NCBI RefSeq assembly: GCF_000271665.2
Contig: NZ_CP010978.1
Span: forward strand, 2,944,501-3,008,500
Direction: 5' to 3'
DNA length: 64,000 bases
DNA from: Pelosinus fermentans JBW45
GTDB lineage: Bacteria; Bacillota; Negativicutes; DSM-13327
This document shows positions 33,442-49,865 of the stretch, in pieces. The position numbers were made by a program, and so were the translations under genes. The notes under the pieces are model-generated. The model was not told the DNA's origin. It was given only the letters and a program-made list of their open reading frames with translations, and searched no databases. How positions within the stretch are numbered: the stretch's first letter is position 1; each line of letters begins with the position of its first letter.

Positions 33442-34971
33442 TTAATAAATCTTCAATTGTCCAACCACCGCTTCTACTTCTCCAACTATTCTGCCGCTCG
33501 CAATTAAATTGTGAAGTGTTTTGATATCCGGTGCAGGTACCCGATCCTCATCCAAATGCGGTACAACACTGCGAATGGTTTGATGAGCTTTAGCTGTGCC
33601 ATCGCCTGGTGTGAGAGGTGCCAAAAAGTCAACACCTTGTGCAGCAGCCAGCATTTCAATAGCTAATACGTTGCAGACATTATCCAAAATTTCTCTGGCT
33701 TGACGAGCAGCAATCGTCCCCATGCTTACATGGTCTTCTTGATTCGCAGAAGTCGGAATGGAATCAGCACTGGCTGGATGTACCAGAACTTTATTCTCCG
33801 ATACCAATGCAGCTGCAACATATTGCGTGATCATAAGACCAGAGTCAACCCCTGGGAAAGCTGTTAAAAATGCTGGCAAATCGCTTAAATGCACATCTAA
33901 CAGACGATTGATACGTCGTTCAGAAATATTGCCTAGTTCCGCAATTGCTAGTTTAAGATAATCCATAACCAAAGCAATCGGCTGACCATGAAAATTTCCG
34001 CCGGAAATTGCTTCACCTGTTTCCGGCATGATGAGCGGATTATCTGTTGCCGCATTAATTTCGACATTCAAGGTTTCCTCTGCACGCCTAAGAGCATCTT
34101 TAGAGGCACCATGCACTTGAGGTATACAGCGCAGCGAGTATGCATCCTGTACTTTTTTGCAGTGAATATGAGAAGCAATGATAGCGCTATGGGCGGTCAG
34201 GCGCAGCATATTTTGGGTAGTTGCAACCTGACCGGGATGTGCTCTAACCTGACTAATCCGCGGATCAAAAGCCGCCCTGGTACCTTTTAAGGCTTCTACG
34301 CTTAATCCCGCTGCAATATCTGCTGCCTTCATCAAATTAACAGCATCATGCCAGGCAATCGTACCAACCGCCGTCATAATTTGTGTCCCATTAATCAATG
34401 CCAACCCTTCTTTGCCACTCAATACAATTGCCTCTAGACCACAAGTTTTTAGCGCCTCAGCACCTGTTATCAACTGACCATTTAGATAAGCCTCACCTTC
34501 CCCCAGCATAACCAAGACCATATGTGAAAGGGGTGCTAAGTCGCCGCTGGCACCGACTGATCCTTTAGCTGGAACTGCAGGACATATGCGTTTATTGAGG
34601 AGATTTAACAGCATTTCTACTGTTGACAGCCTAATCCCTGAATAACCTTTTGCCAATGAATTCGCTCTAAGAAGCATAGCTGAGCGAACAACATCTTCTG
34701 ACAAGTGCTCGCCAACACCGGTAGCATGACTTAAAATCAGATTACGCTGCAGTTTTGCCCTTTCATCTTTTGAAATAAAGATGGTGCTGAAATCGCCAAA
34801 CCCAGTGGAAATACCATAAACAGGCTTTTCTTCTTCTAATATTTTATCAACGATCTGTCTGCTGGCAATGATTTGCTCGCGCCCTTGATTACTGAGCCTG
34901 ACTTCTTCATAGCTGCGTGCTACCTTTATCACATCTTCCAATGTTAAGGAATTTCCATCTAATACTATCAT
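33442..34971 (-). CDS. hutH: Histidine ammonia-lyase
   Basis: This 509-residue HAL/PAL-family enzyme deaminates L-histidine to urocanate. The Ala-Ser-Gly triad that cyclises to the MIO cofactor is in SVGASGDLAPLSH. The active-site Tyr region YGISTGFGDF and QEDHVSMG are conserved. The start at 34971 follows GGAGG at 9 nt; the longer frame from 34989 begins inside that site. It is separated from the other hut enzyme genes by the permease gene. Confidence 0.97.
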   Translation of the reverse strand: MIVLDGNSLTLEDVIKVARSYEEVRLSNQGREQIIASRQIVDKILEEEKPVYGISTGFGDFSTIFISKDERAKLQRNLILSHATGVGEHLSEDVVRSAMLLRANSLAKGYSGIRLSTVEMLLNLLNKRICPAVPAKGSVGASGDLAPLSHMVLVMLGEGEAYLNGQLITGAEALKTCGLEAIVLSGKEGLALINGTQIMTAVGTIAWHDAVNLMKAADIAAGLSVEALKGTRAAFDPRISQVRAHPGQVATTQNMLRLTAHSAIIASHIHCKKVQDAYSLRCIPQVHGASKDALRRAEETLNVEINAATDNPLIMPETGEAISGGNFHGQPIALVMDYLKLAIAELGNISERRINRLLDVHLSDLPAFLTAFPGVDSGLMITQYVAAALVSENKVLVHPASADSIPTSANQEDHVSMGTIAARQAREILDNVCNVLAIEMLAAAQGVDFLAPLTPGDGTAKAHQTIRSVVPHLDEDRVPAPDIKTLHNLIASGRIVGEVEAVVGQLKIY

Positions 34972-35007
34972 GCTGAATCGCCTCCGCATTTTTCGAATTC
35001 TGCTAAT

Positions 35008-36444
35008 TTACTTGCTAATTTCTGCTGGTTTTTCTTCACGCTTGCTGTGAATAAAAATGTAATACAAATAAATGGTTATGATGATTGGCAAACCTGTATA
35101 AAGGACAATCTCCTGTCCATCAATAAAAGCTAAACTTGCGATAATACAAATATTCAAGATAATTGCCACAATTGGCAGCGCCGGATATAATGGCGTTTTA
35201 AAAACCAAGTCTTTCAAATCACCGCCAATTTCCAGAAAGTGTTTGCGAAAATTAATTTGGCACCAAGAAATGACAATCCAAATCAAGCAACCAGTCAAAC
35301 CTACACTGGACATCAGCCATATATAAACCGTGTCAGCAGCATATTCACTGGTTAACAGTGATAATGCAGATAATAGCAGTGTCAAAAATATACCATTAAT
35401 GGGAACGCCCCCTGAATTTAAATGTCCTAACCATTTTGGTGCGTGCCCGTCTTTGGACATTGACCAGAGTAAACGCGAACAAACATATAGTGCAGAATTA
35501 CTGGCTGATAAGGCCGAGGTAAGTACAACAAAACTCATAATATCTTTTGCAATGGGAATGCCGATACGACCAAATACGTATGCAAAGGGGCTTTCTAACA
35601 CACCTGCTTCTTTATAAGGAATGGTTGCTCCCAATACAACGATTGCCAGTACATAAAACACAATGATTCGAAAAACAACGCCTTTAATAACTTTAGGCAC
35701 ATTTTGACCGGGATTCTCACATTCCCCGGCGGCCACTCCCACCAGTTCCGATCCTTGGAAAGAATACACTACCGTAATCATAGTCAAAAACAAAGCCCAA
35801 CCACCATTTGGAAATAACCCAGCCCCTGTGTTAAAATTGGAAAATCCAATAGCTCCTTCATTACCAACAGTACCAAACATTAAACCTGCACCAGCAAGAA
35901 TAAAGGCAATAATAGCTGCAACTTTGATGCCGGCAAACCAAAACTCAGTTTCACCATAAACTTTTACGGAAATTAAATTCAAAGCAGTTACCAATACAGC
36001 AAATAATACACACCAGATCCAAATAGACACACCAGGAAACCACAGTGACATAATAATACCAGACGCGGTAAAGTTAGCCGCAATACAAACTGCCCAGTTA
36101 ATCCAGTACAACCACCCTACTGTAAAGCCTACGCCGGGGGAAATAAATTTCATTGCATAACTTTGGAATGATCCTGATACAGGCATTGCGACGGCAAGCT
36201 CTCCTAAACATAGGAGAGCCAAATACATGACCATCCCACCAAACAGAAAAGCTAACACAGCTCCAACTGGTCCCGCTTCGCTCACCACTTGCCCAGCACC
36301 TAGAAATAAACCAGTACCAATGGTGCCACCAATCGAAATCATCATCATATGCCGCGACTTCAAACCACGATTTAGACCTTTTTTCTCTGGAACCAATGCT
36401 TCTGTATCCACCGCCTGTTTTTTGGGGCCTGTCAGCGTTGTCAC
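35008..36444 (-). CDS. Amino acid permease of the APC family, probably histidine uptake
   Basis: This 478-residue protein has twelve membrane segments. The N-terminal SIGGTIGTGLFLGAG motif marks the amino acid transporter (AAT) branch of the APC superfamily, as in HutT, ProY and LysP. It is a proton-coupled importer. Its place between fchA and hutH makes L-histidine the probable substrate. The GTG start at 36444 follows GGAGGGG at 6 nt; the longer frame would start inside that site. Confidence 0.9.
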   Translation of the reverse strand: MTTLTGPKKQAVDTEALVPEKKGLNRGLKSRHMMMISIGGTIGTGLFLGAGQVVSEAGPVGAVLAFLFGGMVMYLALLCLGELAVAMPVSGSFQSYAMKFISPGVGFTVGWLYWINWAVCIAANFTASGIIMSLWFPGVSIWIWCVLFAVLVTALNLISVKVYGETEFWFAGIKVAAIIAFILAGAGLMFGTVGNEGAIGFSNFNTGAGLFPNGGWALFLTMITVVYSFQGSELVGVAAGECENPGQNVPKVIKGVVFRIIVFYVLAIVVLGATIPYKEAGVLESPFAYVFGRIGIPIAKDIMSFVVLTSALSASNSALYVCSRLLWSMSKDGHAPKWLGHLNSGGVPINGIFLTLLLSALSLLTSEYAADTVYIWLMSSVGLTGCLIWIVISWCQINFRKHFLEIGGDLKDLVFKTPLYPALPIVAIILNICIIASLAFIDGQEIVLYTGLPIIITIYLYYIFIHSKREEKPAEISK

Positions 36445-36523
36445 AATAATCCCCTCCATATTCTTTTTTTCTCTTTTATTGGACGATTTTTCTCGTTTTC
36501 ACAAATTTACAGCACTTTATTCT

Positions 36524-37147
36524 TTATATTTTTTCATTTGCAGTTTTAACGAGTTGATCCATTAACACTTCCGAACGTGCTACGATATCTTCAACCCTGC
36601 TGGTCATGTCAGCAACAAAATCAGCATCTTTGATTGACCCCAGATTAATTCGTACGTTATAGATAGCCGACCACATAGCAGCCTCTGCCATTCTTCCCGC
36701 TACCGCTGCATCACTTGCCGCATTGACGTTGCCAATAGAGAGAATTTTCCCCGATAGCTCTAATACATCCAGACAAGCCTTGGCAACGGTAAACGGTAAT
36801 GTAGATGCAGCTTTGAGGGATTCTTGAATGACTTTTGTACGCACCTGTTTTTCTTCATCGGTATTCTTAGGTAATTTATAGGCTTTCATTACCTGGGTAA
36901 AGGCTTCTGTATCCTCATCAATATATTTTCCCAGCGCTGCTAAACGTTCTTCAAAATCCAACGATAACCTTTTGCATTTTTCATGCACCGTTTCATATTT
37001 TGCACTACCTACCGTTAGGTTTCCTACCATAATCCCCAGCGCTGCCCCGATGGCCCCTACTAAAGCGGCTGCACTGCCACCTCCTGGTGCTGGGGAGTCT
37101 GATTTTAGTTCTGCTAAAAAACCTGTGATACTTTTGTCAATCAGCAT
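36524..37147 (-). CDS. fchA: Formimidotetrahydrofolate cyclodeaminase
   Basis: This 207-residue FTCD_C-family protein has the signature DSPAPGGGSAAALVGAIGAALG. It converts 5-formimino-THF to 5,10-methenyl-THF and ammonia, handling the one-carbon unit made by the glutamate formimidoyltransferase encoded just upstream. The start at 37147 follows GGGAGG at 10 nt. In animals this domain is fused to the transferase; here the two are separate genes. Confidence 0.94.
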   Translation of the reverse strand: MLIDKSITGFLAELKSDSPAPGGGSAAALVGAIGAALGIMVGNLTVGSAKYETVHEKCKRLSLDFEERLAALGKYIDEDTEAFTQVMKAYKLPKNTDEEKQVRTKVIQESLKAASTLPFTVAKACLDVLELSGKILSIGNVNAASDAAVAGRMAEAAMWSAIYNVRINLGSIKDADFVADMTSRVEDIVARSEVLMDQLVKTANEKI

Positions 37148-37180
37148 ACTATTAATACCTCCCAAATTTGTACATATCAA

Positions 37181-38071
37181 CTAAATATTTTCTTCCAACA
37201 CTTGCTTACGATTGAAGCCCTCTAGGCGTAAGTAATAGTCCGCTGTGTCAATTAGTGCCTGCATTGGTACCAACCCCACAATTTCACTGCCAATAATGTT
37301 CACACCGTAACGAGCTGCTTCATTTTTTACCGTTTCAAATACGCGGTGTAGTGGTGTACCTTCATAATTAATCATATTGATAGTAACTTGTGCTACATTG
37401 CGTTCTTCAATCATAATGCCCATAGCTCGGCAGTATTTGAAACCGCCTTTTGCTTCCCGGATAGCAGTGGCAATCTTCTTAGCTACGTTAACATCACTGG
37501 TACTTAAATTAATATTATAGGCAATTAAGCACTGCCTAGCTCCTACTACTGTAGCACCAGCCTTAGGATGCATTTTGGCCGGACCATAATCTGGCTTTCT
37601 TTCCGGCTCCGTAATGGCTGTTTTTAAGCCTTCATACTGCCCTTTGCGAACGTCTGGCAAATTCTTACGCTCATTCTTTTTCGCGGCTGCTTCATACATA
37701 TACACTGGAATGTCTAGTTTCTCAGCAATTTCTTTCCCTAATTCGTTGGCTAAATCCACGCATTCTTCAAGGCTGACTCCTCGTACAGGAATGAACGGAA
37801 TCACATCAGTAGCTCCCATACGCGGATGCTCACCATGATGTTGTTCCATGTCAATCAATTCCGTGGCCTTGGCACAAGAGGCAAACGCTGCCTGTTTAAC
37901 GGCTTGGGGTTCGCCCACAAATGTTACCACCAAGCGATTGTGACTGGCATCGGATTGTACATCCAGCAGCTTGATACCTTCTATTTTTTTCACTTCATTT
38001 ACGATGGCCTCAATGACTTCAGGACGACGTCCTTCACTAAAGTTAGGTACACATTCTACTAATTTACTCAT
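37181..38071 (-). CDS. ftcD: Glutamate formimidoyltransferase
   Basis: This 296-residue FTCD_N-type enzyme begins KLVECVPNFSEGRR, a diagnostic start. HHGEHPRMGATDVIPFIPV, with active-site His, and GPAKMHPKAGATVVGAR are conserved. It transfers the formimino group of N-formimino-L-glutamate to tetrahydrofolate. It lies 1 bp after the hutI stop. The locus also has a formimidoylglutamase (hutG), so two routes for the same intermediate are encoded together. Confidence 0.96.
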   Translation of the reverse strand: MSKLVECVPNFSEGRRPEVIEAIVNEVKKIEGIKLLDVQSDASHNRLVVTFVGEPQAVKQAAFASCAKATELIDMEQHHGEHPRMGATDVIPFIPVRGVSLEECVDLANELGKEIAEKLDIPVYMYEAAAKKNERKNLPDVRKGQYEGLKTAITEPERKPDYGPAKMHPKAGATVVGARQCLIAYNINLSTSDVNVAKKIATAIREAKGGFKYCRAMGIMIEERNVAQVTINMINYEGTPLHRVFETVKNEAARYGVNIIGSEIVGLVPMQALIDTADYYLRLEGFNRKQVLEENI

Positions 38072-38072
38072 C

Positions 38073-39356
38073 TTATTTATTACCTCCCAAATTACTATAT
38101 CCTTTATCTACAACCACTTGCCCTTTCTTAATAACCCGGTCGACGATATCCATCCCAGCATGATAACTCAAGAATAAATAAGATGGATATTTCAGTATAA
38201 CAATATCAGCTTGCTTTCCAGGTTCTAACGTACCGATACGATCCGCTCTTCCAACGGCAGCTGCACCATTTAGCGTCAACGCCGTCAGAATTTCTGCTGG
38301 CGATAACGTAAGCTGGATAGCGGCCAATGCAATCAGCATGGGAATCGAATGACTAAAACAGCTTCCTGGATTATAGTCGGTTGCCAGTGCAAGTGCTCCG
38401 CCATTGTCAATGATCCATCTGGCTCTGGCGTATTTTTCCCTTAGACAAAATGCCGTTATTGGCAACACTGTCGCCACTACACCTCGCGCCGCCATGTCAG
38501 CAATCCCCTTATCCGATGCCTGCAGCAAATGATCCGCAGAAACAGCCCCAAGTTCTGCTGCAAGCTCTGCTCCGCCAAAGGATACAATCTCATCAGCATG
38601 GATTTTTCTTTTCAATCCTAAACCACCTGCGGCCTGCAGGATCTTTCGCGTCTGATCGACTGAGAATACGCCTTTTTCGCAGAATACATCGCAAAACTCT
38701 GCAATTGACTGCTCTGCCACTGCCGGCAGAAGGCTTTCCACAATGAATGTGACATAGTCATCTTCTCGCCCACGATATTCAGGAGGCACGGCATGGGCTC
38801 CCATAAAAGTGGGTACAACCTCGACAGCATGATCAGCATTTAAATTTCCCATAGCTTTTAATTGCATAAGTTCCGTATCAAAATCCAATCCATAACCGCT
38901 TTTGCCTTCCACGGTAGTAACGCCCATGGCTAGCATGTCATCTAACCGCCTCGACGCAGTCTCAACCATTGCCTCATATCCCATAGACTGAGTGGCTTTG
39001 ACGGTATTTAAAATACCACCGCCACGCTCTAAAATCTCCAAATAAGGCGTTCCGCTAAGGCGCCAGAAAAATTCTTCTGGACGATAGCCGCCAAACACAA
39101 AATGTGTATGAGAATCTACAAACCCTGGAATGACACTGCACCCTGTCGCATCAATAATCGTTAAATTTTCATGGGAAATCTCGGGCAAATCAGCAGTTGT
39201 ACCCACCCATTCGATCATTCCATCTTTTGCGAATAATGCACCGTCAGTGATTCTCTCCAAGCGGTTCATACCGGTTCCCTTTCTTGCCGCTGTCCCTGTG
39301 CTGGTGACAATCTCTGCTGCATGTTTAATTAACAATATACTACCTTCACTATGCAA
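38073..39356 (-). CDS. hutI: Imidazolonepropionase
   Basis: This metal-dependent amidohydrolase opens the imidazolone ring to give N-formimino-L-glutamate. Metal ligands are visible in DSHTHFVFGG, in KIHADEIVSFGG and at the Asp of ALATDYNPGSC. The start is unsettled. A TTG at 39356 has AAAGGGGGAG 5 nt upstream and is preferred. A TTG at 39335 has GAAGG at 7 nt, and a frame to 39413 would overlap hutU. All leave the catalytic domain intact (about 421-447 residues). Confidence 0.93.
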   Translation of the reverse strand: MHSEGSILLIKHAAEIVTSTGTAARKGTGMNRLERITDGALFAKDGMIEWVGTTADLPEISHENLTIIDATGCSVIPGFVDSHTHFVFGGYRPEEFFWRLSGTPYLEILERGGGILNTVKATQSMGYEAMVETASRRLDDMLAMGVTTVEGKSGYGLDFDTELMQLKAMGNLNADHAVEVVPTFMGAHAVPPEYRGREDDYVTFIVESLLPAVAEQSIAEFCDVFCEKGVFSVDQTRKILQAAGGLGLKRKIHADEIVSFGGAELAAELGAVSADHLLQASDKGIADMAARGVVATVLPITAFCLREKYARARWIIDNGGALALATDYNPGSCFSHSIPMLIALAAIQLTLSPAEILTALTLNGAAAVGRADRIGTLEPGKQADIVILKYPSYLFLSYHAGMDIVDRVIKKGQVVVDKGYSNLGGNK

Positions 39357-39390
39357 AGCATCTCCCCCTTTAGCACTTTTTTGTACAAAA

Positions 39391-41418
39391 CTATTGAAAC
39401 GCTGCAGTGACAATTTTTTCGATCAGTTCTTCCGTTGGTATATAAGGAATCGTCACATGAGCTTTACCTGCATAATCGCGGTTAAATTCAATAATGGTTT
39501 CAATTGAATGTTCATTTCTTGCCCATGATCGACGGGCTACACCCCCAATGACATCCCATAACATGGCCGATTGCAAAATTTTATCGACCCGCTCACTACC
39601 ATCCAACACCATACCAAAGCCGCCATTGATTGATTTACCGATCCCCACACCCCCACCATTATGCAATGCTACCAGGCTCATTCCTCTGGCAGCATTGCCG
39701 GCAAAACATTGTACTGCCATATCTGCCATCACATTGCTGCCATCCTTGATATTCGACGTTTCGCGAAAGGGTGAGTCCGTGCCGCTGACATCGTGATGAT
39801 CACGCCCTAGCATGACCGGACCAATATCACCACGGCGCACCATTTCATTAAAACGTAATGCAATACTCTTACGGCCTTCTGCATCCTGATATAAAATGCG
39901 CGCCTGGGTTCCTACAACCAACTCATGTTTTTGGGCATCACGAATCCAAATATAATTATCCCTATCCTGGCCGCGCCGTTCAGGATTAATGCATTGCATC
40001 GCCGCTTGGTCAGTTTTATGTAAATCTTCCGGTTTGCCGCTTAAGCAAACCCAGCGAAATGGACCATAGCCGTAATCAAACAATTGTGGTCCCATGATAT
40101 CTTCCACATAGGAGGGAAAAATAAAGCCATCTTTTTCATCATGTCCGTTTTTAGCAATTTCTGTAACCCCTGCATCATAAATTGCCTTCATAAATGCATT
40201 TCCGTAATCAAAGAAATAGGTCCCCTGTTTTACCATTTCTTTGATTAATATGAAATGACGCTGCAAGCTCTTGTTAACCAATTCATGAAATTTGCTGCGA
40301 TTGTTAGTCAAAAGTGCGGTCCGCTCCTCAAAGGTCAACCCCTGTGGACAATAGCCACCGTCATAGGCCGCATGGCAGGAGGTTTGATCAGACAATAAGT
40401 CAATATGTTTATGATTGGCTACTGCATATTCCAGCAAATCTACAATATTGCCATGATAGGCTATGGATAATGCTTTACCCGCAGCCTGATATTCTTCTGC
40501 CATCTTGAATACTTCCTCAATATTATCGCTGCATTTTCCAACCCATCCTTGTTCTAAACGTGTCTGAATGCGGGAGATGTCTACCTCAGCAATAATGCCC
40601 ACTGCACCAGCAATTTCTATTGCTTTTGGCTGCGCACCGCTCATCCCTCCCAATCCAGAGGAAACAAACAACTTCCCATGCAGATCATCATGAGGCGCAA
40701 CGCCCAATTTAATCCTACCTGCCGTTAATAAGGTGTTAAAAGTTCCATGAACAATGCCTTGTGGACCAATATACATCCAGCCGCCCGCTGTCATCTGTCC
40801 ATAGTTGGCAACCCCCATCTGTTCGGCAACTTCCCAGTCATCCTGATTATCAAACATCCCCACCATCAGAGCATTGGTGATAATTACCCTGGGTGCTTCA
40901 GGTTTTGAGGGGAACAATCCCAGGGGATGACCGGACTCTACAACTAGTGTTTGATCTTGCGTCATAACTTCCAAATATTTTTTAATCAATTGATATTGCA
41001 TCCAATTCTGACATACACTTCCTGTTTCTCCATAAGTGACCATTTCATAAGGATAAAGAGCAACATCATGATCCAGGTTATTATCAATCATGACTTGAAA
41101 TGCCTTACCTTCAATGCAGTTACCTTTATATTCATCTAATGGTTTACCGTAAATAGATTCTTTCGGCATATACCGATAACCATAAATCCGTCCATATGTT
41201 TTTAGTTCTTCCATAAATTCCCTTGCCAAATGGTTATGCAACTCCTCTGGAATATACCGTAGAGCATTTTTCAATGCAACTTTACTTTGTTCAATACTTA
41301 ATCGAAAGCCTCTATTCGGTGCCCTGCGCACACCCGTTTTAAATATCGGCGGCTCTGGTAATACATTGTCCAGTTTAATCGTCATGGCACAGGTAATCCC
41401 TTTATTATCGATCTTCAT
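39391..41418 (-). CDS. hutU: Urocanate hydratase
   Basis: This 675-residue protein is of the longer urocanase type found in anaerobes (the classical enzyme is about 555 residues). The NAD-binding FVSSGLGGMSGAQPKA and the active-site Cys region FAGNAARGMSLVALHNGGGVGIGKS are conserved. It converts urocanate to 4-imidazolone-5-propionate. The start at 41418 follows GGAAGGGG at 8 nt. A promoter with SARP-like repeats lies at 41508-41562. Confidence 0.96.
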   Translation of the reverse strand: MKIDNKGITCAMTIKLDNVLPEPPIFKTGVRRAPNRGFRLSIEQSKVALKNALRYIPEELHNHLAREFMEELKTYGRIYGYRYMPKESIYGKPLDEYKGNCIEGKAFQVMIDNNLDHDVALYPYEMVTYGETGSVCQNWMQYQLIKKYLEVMTQDQTLVVESGHPLGLFPSKPEAPRVIITNALMVGMFDNQDDWEVAEQMGVANYGQMTAGGWMYIGPQGIVHGTFNTLLTAGRIKLGVAPHDDLHGKLFVSSGLGGMSGAQPKAIEIAGAVGIIAEVDISRIQTRLEQGWVGKCSDNIEEVFKMAEEYQAAGKALSIAYHGNIVDLLEYAVANHKHIDLLSDQTSCHAAYDGGYCPQGLTFEERTALLTNNRSKFHELVNKSLQRHFILIKEMVKQGTYFFDYGNAFMKAIYDAGVTEIAKNGHDEKDGFIFPSYVEDIMGPQLFDYGYGPFRWVCLSGKPEDLHKTDQAAMQCINPERRGQDRDNYIWIRDAQKHELVVGTQARILYQDAEGRKSIALRFNEMVRRGDIGPVMLGRDHHDVSGTDSPFRETSNIKDGSNVMADMAVQCFAGNAARGMSLVALHNGGGVGIGKSINGGFGMVLDGSERVDKILQSAMLWDVIGGVARRSWARNEHSIETIIEFNRDYAGKAHVTIPYIPTEELIEKIVTAAFQ

Positions 41419-41507
41419 CGTCATATCCCCTTCCACAAAAATAGTATTTAACCATCTATAAAATAATTAATCAAATATATTTTATTTATAATAATCTTTA
41501 TATTCTG

Positions 41508-41562
41508 ATTATAATGCGCCTACTGTCAAAATATCGTCAAAAGAATGCCCAGCATCGTCAAA
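41508..41562 (-). promoter_or_regulatory. hutU promoter with phased direct repeats (SARP-like architecture)
   Basis: On the minus strand the 9-mers TTTGACGAT (41533-41541) and TTTGACAGT (41522-41530) have an 11-bp period. Eight bp (41514-41521) follow before a perfect TATAAT (41508-41513). A further TTTGACGAT copy lies 21 bp upstream (41554-41562). No normal -35 box is needed in this layout. The promoter of the PAS gene at 43191-43224 has the same arrangement. Confidence 0.7.
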
Positions 41563-41585: not shown

Positions 41586-42596
41586 TCACCTAGCCACCCC
41601 TTTCAGTCGGCAAAGAGTATCTACTACAGCAAAAATGATCACTTTGGCCAAGCTCGCAGTTGCCCTGTCATGATCAAACCGCGGTGATACTTCTGCAATG
41701 TCAAATCCAACAACTTTCTGTGTGCGAAGTATATGTTTTAAATACTTCAGCACCATCTCCGGGTGCAGCCCCAAGGGCTGTGGTGCACTGACTCCGGGAG
41801 CAAAAGAAGAGGAAAATACATCTGCACAAATCGTTACGTAAAGATTGGGTATCGACTGCATAAAAGAATCAAGCTTTTCCAGGATATGTTCTTCATATTG
41901 CATGGAAATATCACCTGCTAATAAATAACCTGCTCCTAATTGTTGGGCCGTCTTGAATAATTCAAGTGTATTGCTGCTGCGCTGGATTCCCAAGCAAAAA
42001 TAATGGAATCCTTCTCCCCATTTGCAAGCATCATCGGCAATTTGCCGAAACATCGTCCCAGAATTTCCTTCCCTAATAAATGGTCGAAGATCAAAGTGTG
42101 CATCAAAATTTAAAATACCCAGATCACATTTACCATCTTTCTGTCGCAGGAAATCCGCTTGTCCCCGGAAATGTCCCAAAGCAGTTTCATGACCGCCTCC
42201 CATAACCAGAGGAAACAGTCCGGCTTGACGGAGATTAAGAACTGCTTGTTCTAGCACCATCTGGCTTTTCATTAACTCTCCATCTGCACAGGTAATGTTT
42301 CCCGCATCAAACACCAACACCTCTGAAGAAAAAGAACAGGGTAAATTAGCAAGTTCACGTCGTATCCCCTCCGGTCCTGAAGAAGCACCTTGGCGTCCGC
42401 TATTCCTCCGTATGCCCTCGTCACAGCAAAATCCCAGCAAAGCAAATCCCAATTTACCTGTGAATTTAAATAATGGCTGCCGTAAATCCAGCGGTTTTAT
42501 CCATTGGTGCCACCGAAAAGCATCATAATTTTCCCTGCTGTCAATCCGCCCCTGCCATATTGTAAAATCCGCTGTCTCGTATCTATCCTGAAACAT
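41586..42596 (-). CDS. hutG: Formimidoylglutamase-like ureohydrolase
   Basis: This 336-residue arginase/agmatinase-fold protein carries Mn ligands in GGGHET, NFDAHFDLR (D-A-H-x-D) and CADVFSSSFAPGVSAPQPLG, the last in the form usual for formimidoylglutamases. It hydrolyses N-formimino-L-glutamate to glutamate and formamide. It precedes hutU by 167 bp, which hold a separate promoter, and follows the PAS gene and fhs scar. The start follows GGAGGATAAGT. Another ureohydrolase activity is possible but the neighbours support HutG. Confidence 0.9.
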   Translation of the reverse strand: MFQDRYETADFTIWQGRIDSRENYDAFRWHQWIKPLDLRQPLFKFTGKLGFALLGFCCDEGIRRNSGRQGASSGPEGIRRELANLPCSFSSEVLVFDAGNITCADGELMKSQMVLEQAVLNLRQAGLFPLVMGGGHETALGHFRGQADFLRQKDGKCDLGILNFDAHFDLRPFIREGNSGTMFRQIADDACKWGEGFHYFCLGIQRSSNTLELFKTAQQLGAGYLLAGDISMQYEEHILEKLDSFMQSIPNLYVTICADVFSSSFAPGVSAPQPLGLHPEMVLKYLKHILRTQKVVGFDIAEVSPRFDHDRATASLAKVIIFAVVDTLCRLKGVAR

Positions 42597-42645: not shown

Positions 42646-42787
42646 TTAAAATAATCCAGTAATTTTACCATCATTATCAATATCCATCATTTCTGCCGCA
42701 GGTTTTTTCGGAAGTCCTGGCATTGTCATAATATCGCCGGTAATCACCACCAAAAAATTCCTGGGCAATTTCCACATCACTTTTCAT
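42646..42787 (-). pseudogene. fhs: Remnant of formate-tetrahydrofolate ligase (both ends only)
   Basis: Reading the minus strand, GAGGTGATTGTA is followed by an ATG at 42787 and codons [10 protein letters not shown], which match the N-terminus of Fhs. Immediately after, shifted by one frame, come about 37 codons ending at a TAA (42646-42648). They read [16 protein letters not shown], then [13 protein letters not shown] and GKITGLF, the conserved C-terminus of Fhs. The whole middle of a gene of about 1.67 kb is missing and the join is out of frame. No function remains. It lies 22 bp after the PAS gene and 49 bp before hutG. Confidence 0.85.
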
Positions 42788-42809
42788 TACAATCACCTCA
42801 TCAAAAAAT

Positions 42810-43148
42810 TTAACTTCTTACATAATGGGGCATTTCAGCTGGGATCACCATAGATAATTCCACCAGACCCGCATATTCCCCATTCTGATACCATGGCGTT
42901 TGATAAACCAGCTTTTTTACGCCGTTTTTCTCAATGGTATAACTATTGGCAGTTTTGGTTTCGATAATCTCCGTGATTTTTTTACAGGCACGGTCAGAAT
43001 GAATATCTGCTACATTTTTCCCAACCAAAGTCTTACCACCATATTTTTCAAAAGTTTTAACCGAGGAATCATTCATTTCTATAATTTTGCCAGTTTTATC
43101 TGTAACGGTAATTGCAAAAGGCAATTCCTTTACCCATCCTGTAGACAT
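42810..43148 (-). CDS. Single PAS-domain protein
   Basis: This 112-residue protein is essentially one PAS domain (about residues 8-105: PFAITVTDKTGKIIEMNDSS, then VGKNVADIH) with no effector or membrane segment. It may sense a small molecule or redox state and act on a partner. It heads a transcript PAS, fhs scar, hutG. Its promoter (43191-43224) is built like that of hutU, so both appear to be controlled by the same activator. The start follows GAGGGGGAAGGG. The function is not known. Confidence 0.8.
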   Translation of the reverse strand: MSTGWVKELPFAITVTDKTGKIIEMNDSSVKTFEKYGGKTLVGKNVADIHSDRACKKITEIIETKTANSYTIEKNGVKKLVYQTPWYQNGEYAGLVELSMVIPAEMPHYVRS

Positions 43149-43190: not shown

Positions 43191-43224
43191 ATTCTACAAA
43201 AAGCAATGTCTAACTATCGTCAAA
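43191..43224 (-). promoter_or_regulatory. PAS-gene promoter with phased direct repeats (SARP-like architecture)
   Basis: On the minus strand TTTGACGAT (43216-43224), 2 bp, TTAGACATT (43205-43213), 8 bp, then TAGAAT (43191-43196). Spacing and repeat sequence match the hutU promoter. Confidence 0.65.
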
Positions 43225-43465: not shown

Positions 43466-43666
43466 TTATTTGTATTGAGGTTCTTGCTTTTCAATGTATT
43501 TTTGCCTTCCCTTCAATGTATCAATAGCATTGTCAAGGGTTGTTGCTAATTGCTCAAATGTTTGTTTTGCTTGCGGATCCTGAGTTTCCATAGAAAATGT
43601 TTTCATGCTGGATGCAGCAGATTGAATAGTTGCAATAGCCTGATTCATTTGAGTACCTACCGTCAT
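43466..43666 (-). CDS. DUF1657 small protein (second copy)
   Basis: This 66-residue protein (MTVGTQMNQAIATIQSAAS start, KYIEKQEPQYK end) belongs to DUF1657. Such small helical proteins accompany spoVA genes of the spoVA2mob type. It shares the MTV start and the QEPQYK end with the first copy at 46435-46641. The start at 43666 follows AAAGGGGGTGAG; a longer frame to 43735 overlaps spoVAE. The molecular function is unknown. Confidence 0.85.
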   Translation of the reverse strand: MTVGTQMNQAIATIQSAASSMKTFSMETQDPQAKQTFEQLATTLDNAIDTLKGRQKYIEKQEPQYK

Positions 43667-43694
43667 TTTTCTCACCCCCTTTTCAGAAATATTT

Positions 43695-44048
43695 TTATCC
43701 TTTTGGTTTACATAGTAAAGCTGACAAAAATCCAAATATAATCGCTGCTGAAATACCTGAACTGGTGATTTTAAAAATACCTGTCAATACCCCAATAATA
43801 CCAGTCTTTTCTGCCTCTTGAAGAGCGCCTTTTACCAATTGGTTGCCAAAGCTACTGATCGGAACGGATGCTCCAGCTCCAGCAAATTTTACTAAATCAT
43901 CATATAAACCAAATCCTCCTAAAACAGCTCCAGACACTACCAATGTAACCATTGTATGTGCAGGAGTTAGTTTTAACCCGTCCATGAGGAGCTGTCCAAT
44001 CACACATATAGCCCCACCAACGATAAACGCCAAAATAAATTTTTCCAA
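43695..44048 (-). CDS. spoVAE: Stage V sporulation protein AE (SpoVAEb type)
   Basis: This 117-residue membrane protein has about four hydrophobic segments and GGFGLYDDLVKFAGAGASVPISSFGNQLVKGA, the SpoVAC/SpoVAE family signature. The TTG start at 44048 is chosen because AGGAGG precedes it at 8 nt; the longer frame lies in spoVAD. With SpoVAC and SpoVAD it takes up dipicolinic acid into the forespore and releases it at germination. It lies 17 bp after spoVAD. Confidence 0.92.
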   Translation of the reverse strand: MEKFILAFIVGGAICVIGQLLMDGLKLTPAHTMVTLVVSGAVLGGFGLYDDLVKFAGAGASVPISSFGNQLVKGALQEAEKTGIIGVLTGIFKITSSGISAAIIFGFLSALLCKPKG

Positions 44049-44065
44049 ACCTGGTGCCTCCTGTT

Positions 44066-45067
44066 TTACATTTCTATGGATACTGCATGAGCAACGCACG
44101 GTATAGTTTCCTTTTGCTGGTAAGACATAGGGGACAATAAAGCACCTGTGGCTATAACCAGAATTCGATTCAGTTCTCCTTTTCGCATACGATTTAAAAG
44201 ATGCCCAAAGGTTGTTGTCGCAGCACAGGCACAACCACTGCCTCCTGCAAAAACTGGCTGATTTTCCTTATACATCAAAATACCGCAGTCGGTCAATTTT
44301 TCTACAGGGATATCAAGTCCATGCTGTTTAAGCAAATCTCCTGCAATTGGGTGACCTACCCTACCCAAGTCTCCGGTGGCAATCAGGTCATATTGTAATG
44401 GGGATATGTTTAAATCCCTAAAGTGGGCTTCAATGGTGTCAACTGCAGCAGGAGCCATAGCTGCCCCCATGTTAAAGGGGTCAGAAAGCCCCATGTCTAT
44501 TACACGCCCAATAGTAGATGCTACGATGCGCGGTCCTTCACCTTGCCTCGCAATAACTGCAGCACCTGCTCCCGTCACAGTCCACTGTGCAGTAGGTGGC
44601 TTTTGCGCGCCATATTCGGTAGGGTAACGGTATTGTTTTTCACTAGCTGCGTTATGGCTAGATGTGCCAACAAGTGCATTCTGTGCGAAGCCACTATCAA
44701 TAATAAGAGATGCTAAAGAAAGACCTTCCATAGAACTAGAGCATGCTCCATAAATCCCCAAGTAAGGAACAGCAAGGGCACGTGCAGTAAAGCTGCTGGG
44801 GATAATCTGGTTAATTAGATCACCGCTGAGAAAAAACTGGATATCCTCTTTCTTAAGTCCTGATTTTTTAATTGCAGTCTCACAAGCCTGTTCCAAAAGT
44901 TTTTTTTCTGCTTGTTCATAACTGTCTTGTCCAAGCCATATATCGCCATGAAGCATGTCAAAATCCTTTGCTAGGTTGCCTTGTGCCTCAAAAGGTCCGC
45001 CTATAGCCGCAGATCCAATAATTACTGGTTTGGATTGAAAAACCCATGTTTGATGACCTTGCAACAT
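44066..45067 (-). CDS. spoVAD: Stage V sporulation protein AD
   Basis: This 333-residue protein has a thiolase/ketoacyl-synthase III fold and is the dipicolinic-acid-binding subunit of SpoVA. GIYGACSSSMEGLSLAS, QWTVTGAGAAVIA and FAGGSGCACAATT are conserved. SpoVAD is peripheral on the inner forespore membrane. Its ATG directly follows the spoVAC stop (the TAA and ATG abut), suggesting translational coupling. Confidence 0.95.
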   Translation of the reverse strand: MLQGHQTWVFQSKPVIIGSAAIGGPFEAQGNLAKDFDMLHGDIWLGQDSYEQAEKKLLEQACETAIKKSGLKKEDIQFFLSGDLINQIIPSSFTARALAVPYLGIYGACSSSMEGLSLASLIIDSGFAQNALVGTSSHNAASEKQYRYPTEYGAQKPPTAQWTVTGAGAAVIARQGEGPRIVASTIGRVIDMGLSDPFNMGAAMAPAAVDTIEAHFRDLNISPLQYDLIATGDLGRVGHPIAGDLLKQHGLDIPVEKLTDCGILMYKENQPVFAGGSGCACAATTTFGHLLNRMRKGELNRILVIATGALLSPMSYQQKETIPCVAHAVSIEM

Positions 45068-45547
45068 TTACATTCCACCTAACGACTTAATCATTACACT
45101 TATAATAGCAACAATAAAAGCAGAAAAGACTCCAAATACAATGACTGGTCCTGCGATTTTAAACATATTGCCTCCAACACCTAATACAAAACCCTCACTT
45201 TTATGATCAAGAGAAGCTGATGCGATAGTATTTGCAAATCCTGTAACTGGAACCGAACTTCCCGCACCAGCCCATTGAGCAATATGATCATATACTCCAA
45301 AGCTTGTGAGTAACACTGAAATCATAATTAAAACCGCAACGGTAGGATCTCCTGCTGTCTTTTCATCAAAATTGAAATAATTTATGAAAAACCACTGTAT
45401 TCCCTGACCTATTGTACAAATAATTCCTCCGCCAATAAAAGCTCGTACGCAATTTAATAGTATGGGACGCTGTGGTTCCCTTGCACGAGCAAAGTCTTGG
45501 TACTGCTGCTGCACCGGAGTGAGATTCTTTCTTTTAATACTTGACAA
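45068..45547 (-). CDS. spoVAC: Stage V sporulation protein AC
   Basis: This 159-residue membrane protein of the SpoVAC/SpoVAE family has about five hydrophobic segments and the signature SFGVYDHIAQWAGAGSSVPVTGFANTIASA. In Bacillus, SpoVAC is the mechanosensitive channel for dipicolinic acid. It lies 12 bp after the DUF421 gene. Confidence 0.94.
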   Translation of the reverse strand: MSSIKRKNLTPVQQQYQDFARAREPQRPILLNCVRAFIGGGIICTIGQGIQWFFINYFNFDEKTAGDPTVAVLIMISVLLTSFGVYDHIAQWAGAGSSVPVTGFANTIASASLDHKSEGFVLGVGGNMFKIAGPVIVFGVFSAFIVAIISVMIKSLGGM

Positions 45548-45559
45548 TACAATCCACCT

Positions 45560-46420
45560 CTATCGTAATAAATATGGCTTGAGTTTTTCCATAAGTTGTT
45601 CTAACTTTTCAGCATGCTCCGAATACATCTTTCGAGCTGCTTCATTTTTTGTCTCCAGTGAAAAGCTCATGAGATCAGCCTGGCTTTTTTCAAAATTTGC
45701 ATAGAGCATTTCCTTAACTTTAGGCTGCGGTATTTGTATAGAGTCGTCAAACAAATCTAGGTATAAATCCCCAGATGAATCTACTTGTCCGATGAAAACA
45801 TTATCGATGGATACTCCTATGGTTTCCAATTGAATCTCTAGCCATTCCCTATTAAAGCCTAAAGAAAATAGGGATTCGTTTAGCATATTGCCATCTAGTA
45901 TAACAGTCTGTGGTTCTGTCAGTGGTGCCAATTTCATTCCTAAATCATAGGAAGATACAGGCTTTTTATGGGATTTCAAAAATACATTTATGTCTCCGGT
46001 ATCCTCCATTACAGCAAATTCTACATCTGCTAAACTGAAAGCATTTTTGGAGCGAAGTTCTCGCAGCAGTTCCTCTGCTGTTAGTCTTGTTTGTAGGAGA
46101 TTTTCTTCCATGATCTTCCCATGCTTAATTAACACAGTTTCTTTTCCGCTGACAATGTCATGGACCCACTTGCTTTTTAGAGATAAATAATCCAATGCTA
46201 TAGGAAATAATACCCAAACACTAAGAGCAATAAATCCAAAGGTAAGATTTGCAATTAAATTTAAGGACATTATTGCAGCAATTACTGCAGCTACAATGTA
46301 ACTTACAAATCTAAAAGGCGTCATTCGGACAATATTTCTTTTTCCCATTAATCTGATCAAAATCAACATTAAAAAGAATAATGAAACTGAGCTCAGTAAT
46401 ATCTGTATCCATGTTTGCAT
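45560..46420 (-). CDS. DUF421 (YetF-like) membrane protein of the spoVA operon
   Basis: The 286-residue protein has three N-terminal membrane helices (about residues 5-90) and a cytoplasmic DUF421 region with IKHGKIMEENLLQTRLTAEELL and SLADVEFAVMEDTGDINV. The C-terminal part is unassigned. In spoVA2mob operons a DUF421/DUF1657 protein (2Duf) raises spore heat resistance; a similar role here is inference. The ATG at 46420 follows CAGGAG at 7 nt. The gene lies 14 bp after the first DUF1657 gene. Confidence 0.88.
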   Translation of the reverse strand: MQTWIQILLSSVSLFFLMLILIRLMGKRNIVRMTPFRFVSYIVAAVIAAIMSLNLIANLTFGFIALSVWVLFPIALDYLSLKSKWVHDIVSGKETVLIKHGKIMEENLLQTRLTAEELLRELRSKNAFSLADVEFAVMEDTGDINVFLKSHKKPVSSYDLGMKLAPLTEPQTVILDGNMLNESLFSLGFNREWLEIQLETIGVSIDNVFIGQVDSSGDLYLDLFDDSIQIPQPKVKEMLYANFEKSQADLMSFSLETKNEAARKMYSEHAEKLEQLMEKLKPYLLR

Positions 46421-46434
46421 TTTCAATCTCCTGA

Positions 46435-46641
46435 CTAATTTCCTTTATATTGTGGCTCTTGATATTCCAAAACTTTTATTCTTTCCTCAAGATCGCTGAT
46501 AATTTGCGCTGTAGCTTCTAACGTTTCATTGTAAACTAATTTGCTTTCTTTATCCCTCGTCTGTAGCGCATATAGTCTTAATGTTCCTTGATTACCTTTT
46601 AGAGTGGCTAATGTTTTTTTTATCTGAGAAGCAACTGTCAT
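46435..46641 (-). CDS. DUF1657 small protein (first copy)
   Basis: This 68-residue helical protein (MTVASQIKKTLATLKG start, EYQEPQYKGN end) belongs to DUF1657. It is the first gene of the spoVA operon. The ATG at 46641 follows GGAGG at 8 nt, and the longer frame to 46680 would start inside the sigma-G-like -10 box. The function is not known. Confidence 0.87.
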   Translation of the reverse strand: MTVASQIKKTLATLKGNQGTLRLYALQTRDKESKLVYNETLEATAQIISDLEERIKVLEYQEPQYKGN

Positions 46642-46665
46642 ATCCATTACCTCCATCTTCCCTAC

Positions 46666-46695
46666 TAGTATTACTCTCATTCTAAATATTATTCA
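46666..46695 (-). promoter_or_regulatory. Sigma-G-like (forespore) promoter of the spoVA operon
   Basis: On the minus strand TGAATA (46690-46695) and AATACTA (46666-46672) lie 17 bp apart. This is close to the forespore sigma-G consensus (TGNATA and CATNNTA). It begins 25 bp before the first start codon. Confidence 0.65.
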
Positions 46696-46778: not shown

Positions 46779-49700
46779 TTACCTTTTGCTGCTATATTCA
46801 TCCATCATGTCTTCCAAAGATTTCAGTTCAACCGCCATACCCATTTTATAAAAAACTTTTCGGGCCTGCTGATAATATTCTACCGCAGGCAAAGGCAAAT
46901 CATCTTCAAATACTTCTGCTACTTTTGCGTCATCTTTCATCAACAGTTTTATTTCTGCTTGGGTACGAAAGATTAGTCCATTTTGATATTGATCATTGTA
47001 TTTTTTCAAGAAGTCCTTCGCCTGCTCAAAATATTTTCTTGCTTCATAAGGACGATGCTGCTTGACAGCAATCAATGCCAGTACACAATTGAGTGTACAA
47101 TAACCACGCAAACACCAATAGCCTTTTTGATCGCCAAACCCTTCTGCCACCGACAAAGCCTCCGTAAGATATGCAACAGCCTTTGCATAATTTTTGATTT
47201 GAAAGGCTGTATAACCAGCATTAATATAAAATAAGGCTACTCCTTCGCTAATATTTTTACGTCCAGCTATTCTAGCAGCTTGCTCATAGTGATGTAAAGC
47301 TGCTTGATAATCAGAACTCTCTCGTCTTAAATCACCAATATAATTTTGGACTGCTGCAATGGTAAAAGCATAAAAACGATTGCGAGTTGCCAACTTCTTA
47401 AATAGTGCCAATGATTGTCTGTAATAATTCTCTGCTTCTTGATGTTGCCCTTTGAGCGCGCAGGCAATTCCTAAAAATCGCAAAGCTGTCGCTTTTTTAT
47501 CTGGAAGTTCATCATGTTCCGTCAAATGCAACAACTTGAGGGCAAATTCCTGGATCAAATATGCCCTCCGAGTTTGAATACCGCAATAAATAATTTGCTG
47601 ATACCCTTTGATTTGATACTCTCTAAGTTTTTGCACTGAAGCTAAGCGCAGCATTTGGTGAATTAGTTTCAATCCCAGCAAGTGTTCTCCCCGCCAGATA
47701 TGATAGCGACCAGACATTTCCCAGTAAGCAACTTTATGAGCATCCAATCGTTTATCTGCTATTTTGGGATGGACTAATACATCCAGCAATTCCTTTATTT
47801 TCTCCAGATATGTGGTGATCTGGCTCCGACTTTCCCGAAAATCAACATATCCCGTTGGGTAATAACGATTCAGTTCCGGAAACATTTCATACTGGGGACA
47901 AAAATATTTTTCGGATAATTTAATAGTATAATCCAACATTTTCAACTTTTCATCGGCATTTGTGTAATGGTATAAAATATGTTCATAAACATCTTTACTT
48001 TGCATGCCATCTTGCAGCAGCTGCTCTAAATAGGATGCCGCTTGCTTATGAAACATCCGTTGTCTGATTGTTGACATTTGATTATATACGTAATTACGAA
48101 TCTGCAAATTATAAAACTTATAGGCCGATCCGTCTCTATTTGAATCCAGATCTTCCATCAGAAGTTGTTTTTGTTGTAATTCCTCTAACACTTCCACCAA
48201 TTCAAATTCATTGATTCTAGAAATAGCCTGCAGCACCTCATAATTCACATTATTAAAGAAAACGGATGCAATCTCTAAAGTTTTTCTGGCATTATCAGAA
48301 ACATTGCCAGTACGTTCTTTTAATACGCTGTTCAATCGGATTGAGCCGTGGCTAATATCTCTGCCAGCTGCAATTAAATTTAGACATTCAATCAAAAACA
48401 GCGCATTGCCGCCTGTATAGTCGTATAGCCTAGACTGCATCTCCTTACTAATACCAGGCAGCCGTAAAACAGACAATTTCATTACGTCTTGCGCACTGAA
48501 CCGACCAATTTCTAAGTGTTCCAACATATTGCTGCGTTCAAATTCTTCCATGGTTTTGTCAATCTGCTGTAAATACTCCGCATGACAGGTCGCTATACAG
48601 ATTATATTTTTTCCATGAATGCGTAATACCTGCCACAGCAGCAGCCACCCTTGCTTATCCATCCAATGAATGTCTTCAATCAATAGTATGGTTTTCTTCA
48701 AATTAGCAGCTTTACCCAAAACCTCACACATAATTTCTTCAACCGTGGTTGCACTGAATTTATAAGCATCCATCGTTACTTCTTTATGTAACAGTGTTTC
48801 ACTTATTTTCGTCGTTGGAAAAACATAAGCAATTACCTGTTGCCAAAGGAGTGGCAAATGAACATCGGCTTGCATTAAACAGCTCATTACCTGTAAAAAG
48901 ATATTGTTCCACGCCTTATACACATATTCAAATTCAGCCTGATAGCATTGGGTACGAAAAATATTACTATGCTTTATTGGAATGCTTGAAAAAAGTTGTT
49001 CAATAATTGCCGATTTGCCAACACCTTGATCTCCCTGCAGCAATATCATCTGCTTACTATGGCCCTTTTGATAAAAGTCATCCAGCCATAGGCGCAATTG
49101 CAGTAATTCTTTTTCCCTTCCGAAAAATCTCTGATTACTAACTACCCCTTCTTCAATGGCTCTGCTGCTTTTCCGGTCCTTGATCCGCCTATAGAGTTCC
49201 TGAGTCTTAGCACTAGGCAGCAAAGACAAATCCTGTGCCATCTTTCTCTCAAGATCTTGATAGATTTCCATTGCTTTATACGAGTCTTCTTTTTCATAGA
49301 TTTTCATCAATACCCGGTAGGCACTTTCGTTATATGCATCCATTCCAATCAATTGCTTTAAATACTTCTTGGCTGACATATATTCTTTTTGGTTTATTAG
49401 CTTTATGATATATTTCGTCAAATAGTTTATACTATCCATCCTAAACTGCTCGCGTTTTTCGGTAACCCATTCGTCAAAACTGGCTGCATCTTTACAATAA
49501 AAACCACCTAAAAACTCACCAGGATTTTTTTCTAAAAAATTTACAATATCAGTTACCGTCATTAGCTCCAAATCTGTCTCTGCCACTATTTCTGGGTTTA
49601 ATGCAATCTTTGCCCGGGATGAAGTAATCAGTAAATCCACGGAAAACATTTTTCTCAATAAATACACTGTATTGCGTAAATTTCGTTTCGCGGCATGATC

Positions 49701-49865
49701 TCCCATATCCCCCCAGAGCAGTGCTGCCAAATCCTCTCGTGTAGCTTCACCAGTAACCAAAAGATAGTACAACAAGGCTTCCATTTTTGCAAAAGGGAAT
49801 ATCATTTTTTGATCATTCCAATAAACTGCCGGTTTTTCAAATAACACTACATGTAATTTAGCCAC
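46779..49865 (-). CDS. SARP/AfsR-type transcriptional regulator (wHTH-BTAD-ATPase-TPR)
   Basis: This 1028-residue protein has, in order, an OmpR-like winged helix (about 5-95, LLWGDMGDHAAKRNLRNTVYLLRKMF) and a bacterial transcriptional activation domain (BTAD, about 98-240). An AAA/NACHT-like ATPase (about 250-520, P-loop GDQGVGKSAI, Walker B TILLIEDIHWMD) and a TPR-rich C-terminus (about 770-1015) follow. Family members bind direct repeats spaced 11 or 22 bp, 8 bp before the -10 box. Exactly such sites precede hutU (41508-41562) and the PAS gene (43191-43224). The GTG start follows AAAGGGGATGA, with a TATAAT at 49907-49912. A role as hut activator is inference. Confidence 0.88.
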   Translation of the reverse strand: MAKLHVVLFEKPAVYWNDQKMIFPFAKMEALLYYLLVTGEATREDLAALLWGDMGDHAAKRNLRNTVYLLRKMFSVDLLITSSRAKIALNPEIVAETDLELMTVTDIVNFLEKNPGEFLGGFYCKDAASFDEWVTEKREQFRMDSINYLTKYIIKLINQKEYMSAKKYLKQLIGMDAYNESAYRVLMKIYEKEDSYKAMEIYQDLERKMAQDLSLLPSAKTQELYRRIKDRKSSRAIEEGVVSNQRFFGREKELLQLRLWLDDFYQKGHSKQMILLQGDQGVGKSAIIEQLFSSIPIKHSNIFRTQCYQAEFEYVYKAWNNIFLQVMSCLMQADVHLPLLWQQVIAYVFPTTKISETLLHKEVTMDAYKFSATTVEEIMCEVLGKAANLKKTILLIEDIHWMDKQGWLLLWQVLRIHGKNIICIATCHAEYLQQIDKTMEEFERSNMLEHLEIGRFSAQDVMKLSVLRLPGISKEMQSRLYDYTGGNALFLIECLNLIAAGRDISHGSIRLNSVLKERTGNVSDNARKTLEIASVFFNNVNYEVLQAISRINEFELVEVLEELQQKQLLMEDLDSNRDGSAYKFYNLQIRNYVYNQMSTIRQRMFHKQAASYLEQLLQDGMQSKDVYEHILYHYTNADEKLKMLDYTIKLSEKYFCPQYEMFPELNRYYPTGYVDFRESRSQITTYLEKIKELLDVLVHPKIADKRLDAHKVAYWEMSGRYHIWRGEHLLGLKLIHQMLRLASVQKLREYQIKGYQQIIYCGIQTRRAYLIQEFALKLLHLTEHDELPDKKATALRFLGIACALKGQHQEAENYYRQSLALFKKLATRNRFYAFTIAAVQNYIGDLRRESSDYQAALHHYEQAARIAGRKNISEGVALFYINAGYTAFQIKNYAKAVAYLTEALSVAEGFGDQKGYWCLRGYCTLNCVLALIAVKQHRPYEARKYFEQAKDFLKKYNDQYQNGLIFRTQAEIKLLMKDDAKVAEVFEDDLPLPAVEYYQQARKVFYKMGMAVELKSLEDMMDEYSSKR

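Follow-up and report, generated by a model that had tools for sequence, protein, structure and literature searches.

The histidine-degradation (hut) genes of Pelosinus fermentans JBW45 lie behind a promoter with short direct repeats ahead of its -10 hexamer, which raises the question of what protein reads these repeats and with what effect on the genes. The preliminary description of the locus proposed that the reader is a SARP-type regulator encoded at 46779-49865 of the same stretch of DNA, 64,000 nucleotides long and referred to here as the window. SARPs are known from actinomycetes, where they act as switches for antibiotic gene clusters. The analyses presented here make it very probable, as judged from sequence, that the repeats are the operator of this regulator and that it is a SARP-type activator of the hut genes.

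The repeats were present exactly as first described: the minus strand at 41541-41508 reads TTTGACGAT-AT-TTTGACAGT-AGGCGCAT-TATAAT, and the listed start of hutU is 71 bp downstream. The promoter elements are as follows.

41554 to 41562, minus strand: third copy of TTTGACGAT in the hutU promoter, 21 bp upstream of the first repeat.
41533 to 41541, minus strand: TTTGACGAT, the first direct repeat of the pair at hutU and the predicted upstream half-site for the regulator.
41522 to 41530, minus strand: TTTGACAGT, the downstream direct repeat at hutU, beginning 11 bp after the start of the upstream repeat.
41508 to 41513, minus strand: -10 hexamer TATAAT of the hutU promoter, 8 bp after TTTGACAGT.

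SARP sites have been described as direct repeats with a period of 11 or 22 bp, the 3' one being separated from the -10 by 8 bp (PMC10936776). The preliminary description had assigned this SARP/AfsR geometry to the hutU promoter, and we found direct repeats at 11 bp, followed by 8 bp to the -10, at both of the sites of this form in the window. A degenerate version of the site, allowing at most three mismatches, matched twice in the 64-kb window and never in 100 dinucleotide shuffles of it. A closely similar pattern matched three times in the 5.38-Mb genome (at the hutU site, at 43224-43191 and once with three mismatches), and the version with a 7-bp gap had no match in the whole genome. The three-mismatch match (G000:C1:2991377) is within the reading frame of the regulator and was taken as chance. 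The genome therefore has two good sites only, at hutU and ahead of a gene for a PAS protein 1.7 kb away, both of them at the hut locus. The generalised pattern given in the preliminary description fits the second site as well, although that description had named the hutU promoter alone. The second site and the hut genes are listed below.

43191 to 43224, minus strand: second site of the same kind, TTTGACGATAGTTAGACATTGCTTTTTGTAGAAT, ahead of the PAS-protein gene.
42810 to 43148, minus strand: small PAS-domain protein of 112 aa, predicted target and possible co-sensor.
42649 to 42799, minus strand: formate-tetrahydrofolate ligase remnant (residues 3-16 and 526-561, in two frames).
41586 to 42596, minus strand: hutG, formimidoylglutamase, downstream of the PAS promoter.
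39391 to 41436, minus strand: hutU (urocanate hydratase), with which the predicted operon begins.
38073 to 39413, minus strand: hutI, imidazolonepropionase.
37181 to 38071, minus strand: ftcD, glutamate formimidoyltransferase.
36524 to 37180, minus strand: methenyltetrahydrofolate cyclohydrolase FchA-like protein, under the NCBIfam cut-off.
35008 to 36459, minus strand: amino-acid permease of the AA_permease family.
33442 to 34989, minus strand: hutH (histidine ammonia-lyase), with which the predicted operon ends.

The genes from hutU through hutI, ftcD, the FchA-like gene and the permease gene to hutH share one strand, with gaps that are short or genes that overlap. Behind the PAS site the order is the PAS protein, whose PAS matches were just under the Pfam cut-offs, the formate-tetrahydrofolate ligase remnant and hutG.

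Both the hutU and PAS sites were present in all eight genomes of the genus examined, as was a PAS homologue at the locus. Relatives have either 7 or 8 bp between the downstream repeat and the -10, and the two window sites have 8 bp; in one congener (G004) the gap at the PAS site is 7 bp. The third copy of TTTGACGAT, which the preliminary description had placed 21 bp upstream of the pair, is present in the window but is not general: in the genus it lies 21 bp upstream in 4/8 genomes and 42 bp upstream in 3/8 and is absent from one (G001), and in the two close relatives checked outside the genus (G048 and G335) it was not seen within 120 bp. G048 does have a second full site approximately 120 bp upstream.

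The neighbourhood of the PAS gene varies. Where JBW45 has the ligase remnant, five congeners (G001, G003, G004, G005 and G006) have an ORF of 558-561 aa, identified as the ligase in G001, and no such ORF was listed at this place in G002. A spoVAC-spoVAD-spoVAE-DUF421 block, at 43466-46680 on the minus strand of the window, separates the regulator from the PAS gene in JBW45, G002 and G004, and the regulator directly adjoins the PAS gene in G003, G005 and G006. Homologues of the small PAS protein also occur near the regulator outside the genus, in G024 (L055 5851-6171, 48% identity) and in G335 (L161 9017-9349, 77% identity), which hints at a functional link between the PAS protein and the regulator.

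The candidate regulator is encoded upstream of these genes.

46779 to 49865, minus strand: regulator of 1028 aa, with wHTH-BTAD (SARP domain), AAA_16 ATPase and TPR parts.

Its assignment as a SARP-type (wHTH-BTAD) protein, made in the preliminary description, was borne out by a BTAD match and by an N-terminal model of AfsR/EmbR type. Besides BTAD, the protein has AAA_16 at residues 246-416 and TPR matches at 792-908. BTAD was found in 31/31 members of the regulator alignment (A1), and the regulator is the one BTAD protein found in the JBW45 genome. No match to Pfam Trans_reg_C was reported for it, no NCBIfam match was above the curated cut-off, and phmmer of the full protein against the PDB returned TPR proteins only. 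The fold of residues 2-245, modelled from 31 relatives with a mean pLDDT of 90.8, matched AfsR in its transcription complexes (8k60, Z 16.6, residues 1-233; 8hvr, Z 15.8) and EmbR (Z 15.0) over 223-225 residues, followed by OmpR-type DNA-binding domains over 85-90 residues at Z of at most 9.4. Foldseek gave six matches at E of 0.001 or lower, all of them AfsR or EmbR. Based on this model, the N-terminal part of the regulator would be an AfsR/EmbR-type SARP domain.

AfsR of Streptomyces coelicolor, a large SARP, has the same order of parts as the regulator, a wHTH and BTAD fold (Z 16.6) and then NTPase and TPR, and the features of large SARPs, wHTH followed by BTAD with a C-terminal NTPase (NOD) and TPR, are all found in the regulator. 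What it lacks is the antibiotic or secondary-metabolite role in actinomycetes; its sites and neighbourhood point to histidine degradation in Negativicutes, and the term SARP therefore fits it by architecture and not by role. The regulator also differs from AfsR in phylum, in having a primary catabolic pathway as its target, in the repeat (TTNGACG) and in an ATPase that was scored as AAA_16. The residues of AfsR described as contacting bases are T88 and R92 (PMC10936776). With positions counted by hand on the alignment, these two correspond to N64 and L68 of alignment A1, and W74 of AfsR to W50; the regulator thus has N and L in place of T88 and R92, which are themselves not kept in the family, and N64 is almost invariant. 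Base recognition would accordingly differ from that of AfsR. EmbR of Mycobacterium tuberculosis has the same SARP domain fold (Z 15.0) but carries an FHA domain (PMC10936776), whereas the window protein has an ATPase and TPR.

A different winged-helix protein, for instance a PhoP/OmpR-type response regulator, might bind the repeats instead. Response regulators of this type also use direct repeats at about 11 bp, and the DNA-binding half of our model resembles YycF, PhoP, VicR and KdpE (Z 8.8-9.4), so that geometry is not enough by itself to identify the protein as a SARP. Against such a protein, both good sites of JBW45 are at the hut locus, and the distribution of the site follows that of the BTAD gene from one genus to another, as determined from a sample of 380 genomes of the class Negativicutes, to which Pelosinus belongs.

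A hutU match was obtained in 69 of these genomes, of which 67 were kept (G102 and G029, with about 40% identity, were dropped). The regulator, defined as a match to alignment A1 at E 1e-15, was identified in 43 genomes, 36 of which also have hutU; genomes listed as being without the regulator are those with no such match. The region from 400 bp upstream to 30 bp downstream of each hutU start was scored for TTTGACG, a second TTTGACG at +11 and TATAAT after a gap of 7 or 8 bp, with a maximum of 20. The preliminary description had staked its proposal on the repeats being kept in relatives that have both genes, and kept they were: a hutU site scoring at least 14 was found in 34/36 genomes with the regulator versus 2/32 hutU copies without it, and one scoring at least 16 in 22/36 versus 2/32. 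The cut of 14 had been picked after seeing the first 150 genomes. Among hutU copies beyond those 150 it separated the two groups fully (6/6 with the regulator versus 0/16 without), and at a cut of 16 the counts were 2/6 and 0/16. Four of the 22 held-out copies, those of G166, G216, G220 and G221, did not pass an alignment filter and were counted in afterwards; they score 12-13 and have no site. G016 entered the test with 144 bp of sequence only. As the genomes are related and not independent, Fisher values for this co-occurrence overstate its certainty; the regulator is in 10 genera, and a site at hutU was found in 8 of these 10. When the BTAD model was run on 16 genomes without the regulator, three had another BTAD match (G138, G030 and G126).

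In 28 of the 36 genomes the regulator gene and hutU share a contig and lie within 12 kb of each other, which likewise argues against another winged-helix protein; the two genes are on different contigs in seven genomes and far apart in one. The last of these (G377) has its regulator 573 kb from hutU on one contig, and the hutU site is still present. A scan of 663,845 bases of partly overlapping loci identified 39 sites scoring at least 15, compared to 0-3 in each of five first-order Markov resamplings, and 18 sites scoring at least 18, compared to none in the five. Based on the dinucleotide shuffles and these resamplings, a chance origin of the site was rejected.

The exceptions to the co-occurrence were also examined. 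Of the two genomes with the regulator and no hutU site, G024 has a site before hutG, the first gene of its hut run, and in G094 the sole site in the scanned 20 kb precedes the regulator gene itself. The two genomes with a site and no regulator match differ from one another. In G126 decayed fragments of a BTAD regulator are located just upstream of hutU (L136 7278-7905), and the predicted operator at hutU is intact beside the decayed gene. G130 has a good operator-like site before hutU (L143 2114-2146), yet neither the BTAD model nor the regulator search found a BTAD protein in its genome, and four genes near hutU gave no SARP candidate. The G130 site would suit a winged-helix protein of another kind; considering all of the above, we regard control by such a protein as unlikely and retain the BTAD regulator as the reader of the repeats. 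Weak hutU sites, with shuffle p values near 0.1, were found in three genomes of one genus (G059, G103 and G378); there, and likewise in G073, G081 and G085, an equal or higher score is reached at another place or in another register. In G335, which has two hutU genes, the copy near the regulator has a site scoring 19 and the other copy scores 11 and has no site. The Pelosinus-like regulator of G335 falls inside the Pelosinus clade of the regulator tree, and its cluster was either transferred or belongs to a mis-binned contig.

Several genomes have sites before genes other than hutU. In genus g41, seven genomes have both the regulator and hutU, and in six of these (G059, G103, G107, G377, G378 and G379, but not G143) a second site just after the regulator precedes a transporter gene and then a hutH-like gene. 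The transporter of G059, the only one of the six scanned, is of the Na+/H+-antiporter family, and in G097 and G109 sites are located ahead of transporters from those Pfam families. A third site in G059, G103 and G107 is located before a gene of 189-197 aa, identified as HutD in G107. Sites were also found before hutG in G024 and G335 and before an aromatic amino-acid lyase gene in G106. The occurrence of sites of the same form before the genes for PAS protein, hutG, HutD, transporter and lyase in different genomes is difficult to reconcile with chance repeats in an ordinary promoter that were conserved via common descent of the upstream region only. The persistence of the G126 site beside a decayed regulator gene is what such descent could produce, but it is opposed by the shuffle controls and by the six columns ahead of the repeats, which are hardly conserved (at most 0.44 bits over 34 promoters). 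We consider this explanation extremely improbable.

The anatomy of the site was examined in 34 promoters, with G024 and G094 left out. The conserved columns read TTNGACGWT-TT-TTNGAYR. Conservation of the scored columns is in part by construction, but unscored columns between and inside the repeats are also conserved, for example a T at position 8 in 34/34. In none of the 34 promoters does a hexamer spaced 16-18 bp from the -10 agree with TTGACA at more than 3/6 positions, and the best match of the JBW45 hutU promoter at this spacing is 3/6; an ordinary -35/-10 promoter at hutU was rejected on the basis that no hexamer exceeds 3/6. Numbered with TATAAT as -12 to -7, the window site has its repeats between -40 and -19. 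The afs box occupies the same positions, -40 to -19, and in the afsS promoter it likewise consists of two 11-bp direct repeats with a poor -35 (PMC10936776). The -10 of hutU in Pelosinus differs from that of the afs system in being the consensus. The AfsR register and the lack of a good -35 led us to read the site as that of an activator.

It is conceivable that the regulator binds the hutU site and represses the hut genes, since a protein sitting over the promoter would presumably block RNA polymerase too. A repressed promoter, however, normally keeps a -35 of its own, and none of the 34 has one above 3/6; in addition, SARPs have been described as activators (PMC10936776). Repression is therefore very unlikely, and activation at hutU in the AfsR register is, with good confidence, the best reading of these sequences. 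The pairing of the regulator with the hutU repeats, as put forward in the preliminary description, is supported by the co-occurrence, the single BTAD protein of JBW45, the fold model and the AfsR register, and the comparative evidence for regulator and site belonging together is strong enough for us to hold it with high confidence.

The sequence, its conservation, the joint occurrence of site and regulator, the predicted fold and the lack of a good -35 are computed results, whereas physical binding of the regulator to the repeats, activation over repression, the operon boundaries, an inducer and a role for the PAS protein are inferences. Under the proposed mechanism, a pair of adjacent SARP domains would occupy the 11-bp direct repeats, where a -35 would otherwise sit, and bring RNA polymerase to a promoter with a good -10 but no -35. 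Two transcripts would be switched on, hutU-hutI-ftcD-fchA-permease-hutH and PAS-(fhs)-hutG. Keeping the SARP domain inactive is the probable role of the AAA_16 and TPR parts, and its release is probably caused by a metabolite of the histidine pathway or by the PAS protein.

Other regulators of histidine genes are known in Firmicutes. Hut operons controlled by HutP share the histidine-degradation pathway with the system described here; HutP acts on RNA. In three genomes (G114, G122 and G138) a HutP-family gene is directly upstream of hutU, and in all three hutU is without the DNA site. HutP-family genes are present in 48/67 hutU genomes, many alongside the BTAD regulator, and we rejected a genome-wide mutual exclusion of the two for this reason, which leaves only the direct adjacency of HutP-family gene and hutU in the three genomes above. 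JBW45 has HutP-family genes at 1292377 and 1655649, both far from the hut locus near 2986000, and HutP control of its hut operon was rejected on these grounds. HisR likewise has a histidine-related regulon and is reported in Negativicutes too (PMC9413887), but it is of the TrpR family, with a 20-bp palindromic site and biosynthesis and transport genes as targets (PMC9413887). A hutH-hisT gene cluster is named for Oscillibacter (PMC9413887).

The history of the regulator family was examined in a tree of 38 regulators, which carried a long-branch warning: 30 regulators with a hut label are spread throughout, with six others nested in between, and two are unlabelled. The neighbours and sites of the six point elsewhere. 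Direct-repeat sites precede a cytosine/purine-type permease gene in L074 (13328-13360) and L076 (12502-12534) and a putative permease gene in L075 (6499-6531), and the genes downstream of these three sites are divergent from the paralogous BTAD regulator. In L077 the site overlaps the start of a methyltransferase gene. In L078 and L081, genes for an SSF symporter and aconitase X adjoin BTAD regulators of the same family, which suggests that these two control another catabolic pathway; that of L081 (G041) is also within 12 kb of a hutU having a site. Together, the tree and these neighbourhoods suggest duplication and retargeting of a hut activator, presumably in that direction. Distant regulators were seen beside an FchA-like gene in three genomes with no hutU match, and a site of the same form is near each of them: L063 4971-5003 (G071), L185 4598-4630 (G372) and L187 15916-15948 (G371).

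Among the open-access literature matches listed, as read from title and start of abstract, neither BTAD/SARP control of histidine degradation nor a BTAD/SARP regulator from Negativicutes is described. We speculate, as a broader idea that we hold to be slightly more doubtful than probable, that SARP-type activation is an old and general route of Negativicutes for catabolic promoters without a -35, and one not tied to antibiotic control. In one family, duplication of an ancestral hut activator may have been followed by retargeting to a nucleobase-type permease and to an SSF symporter with aconitase X, with the TTNGACG code kept and the ATPase-TPR part serving as metabolite sensor. As proposed here, the hut regulon in these diderm Firmicutes would combine SARP architecture and promoter register with a dedicated catabolic pathway as its target, and a SARP-type hut regulator would add a mode of control in Firmicutes beside HutP. 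The regulon would be a simple system whose inducer could be searched for among a few pathway metabolites, and through it what the ATPase-TPR part of a large SARP senses could become directly testable.
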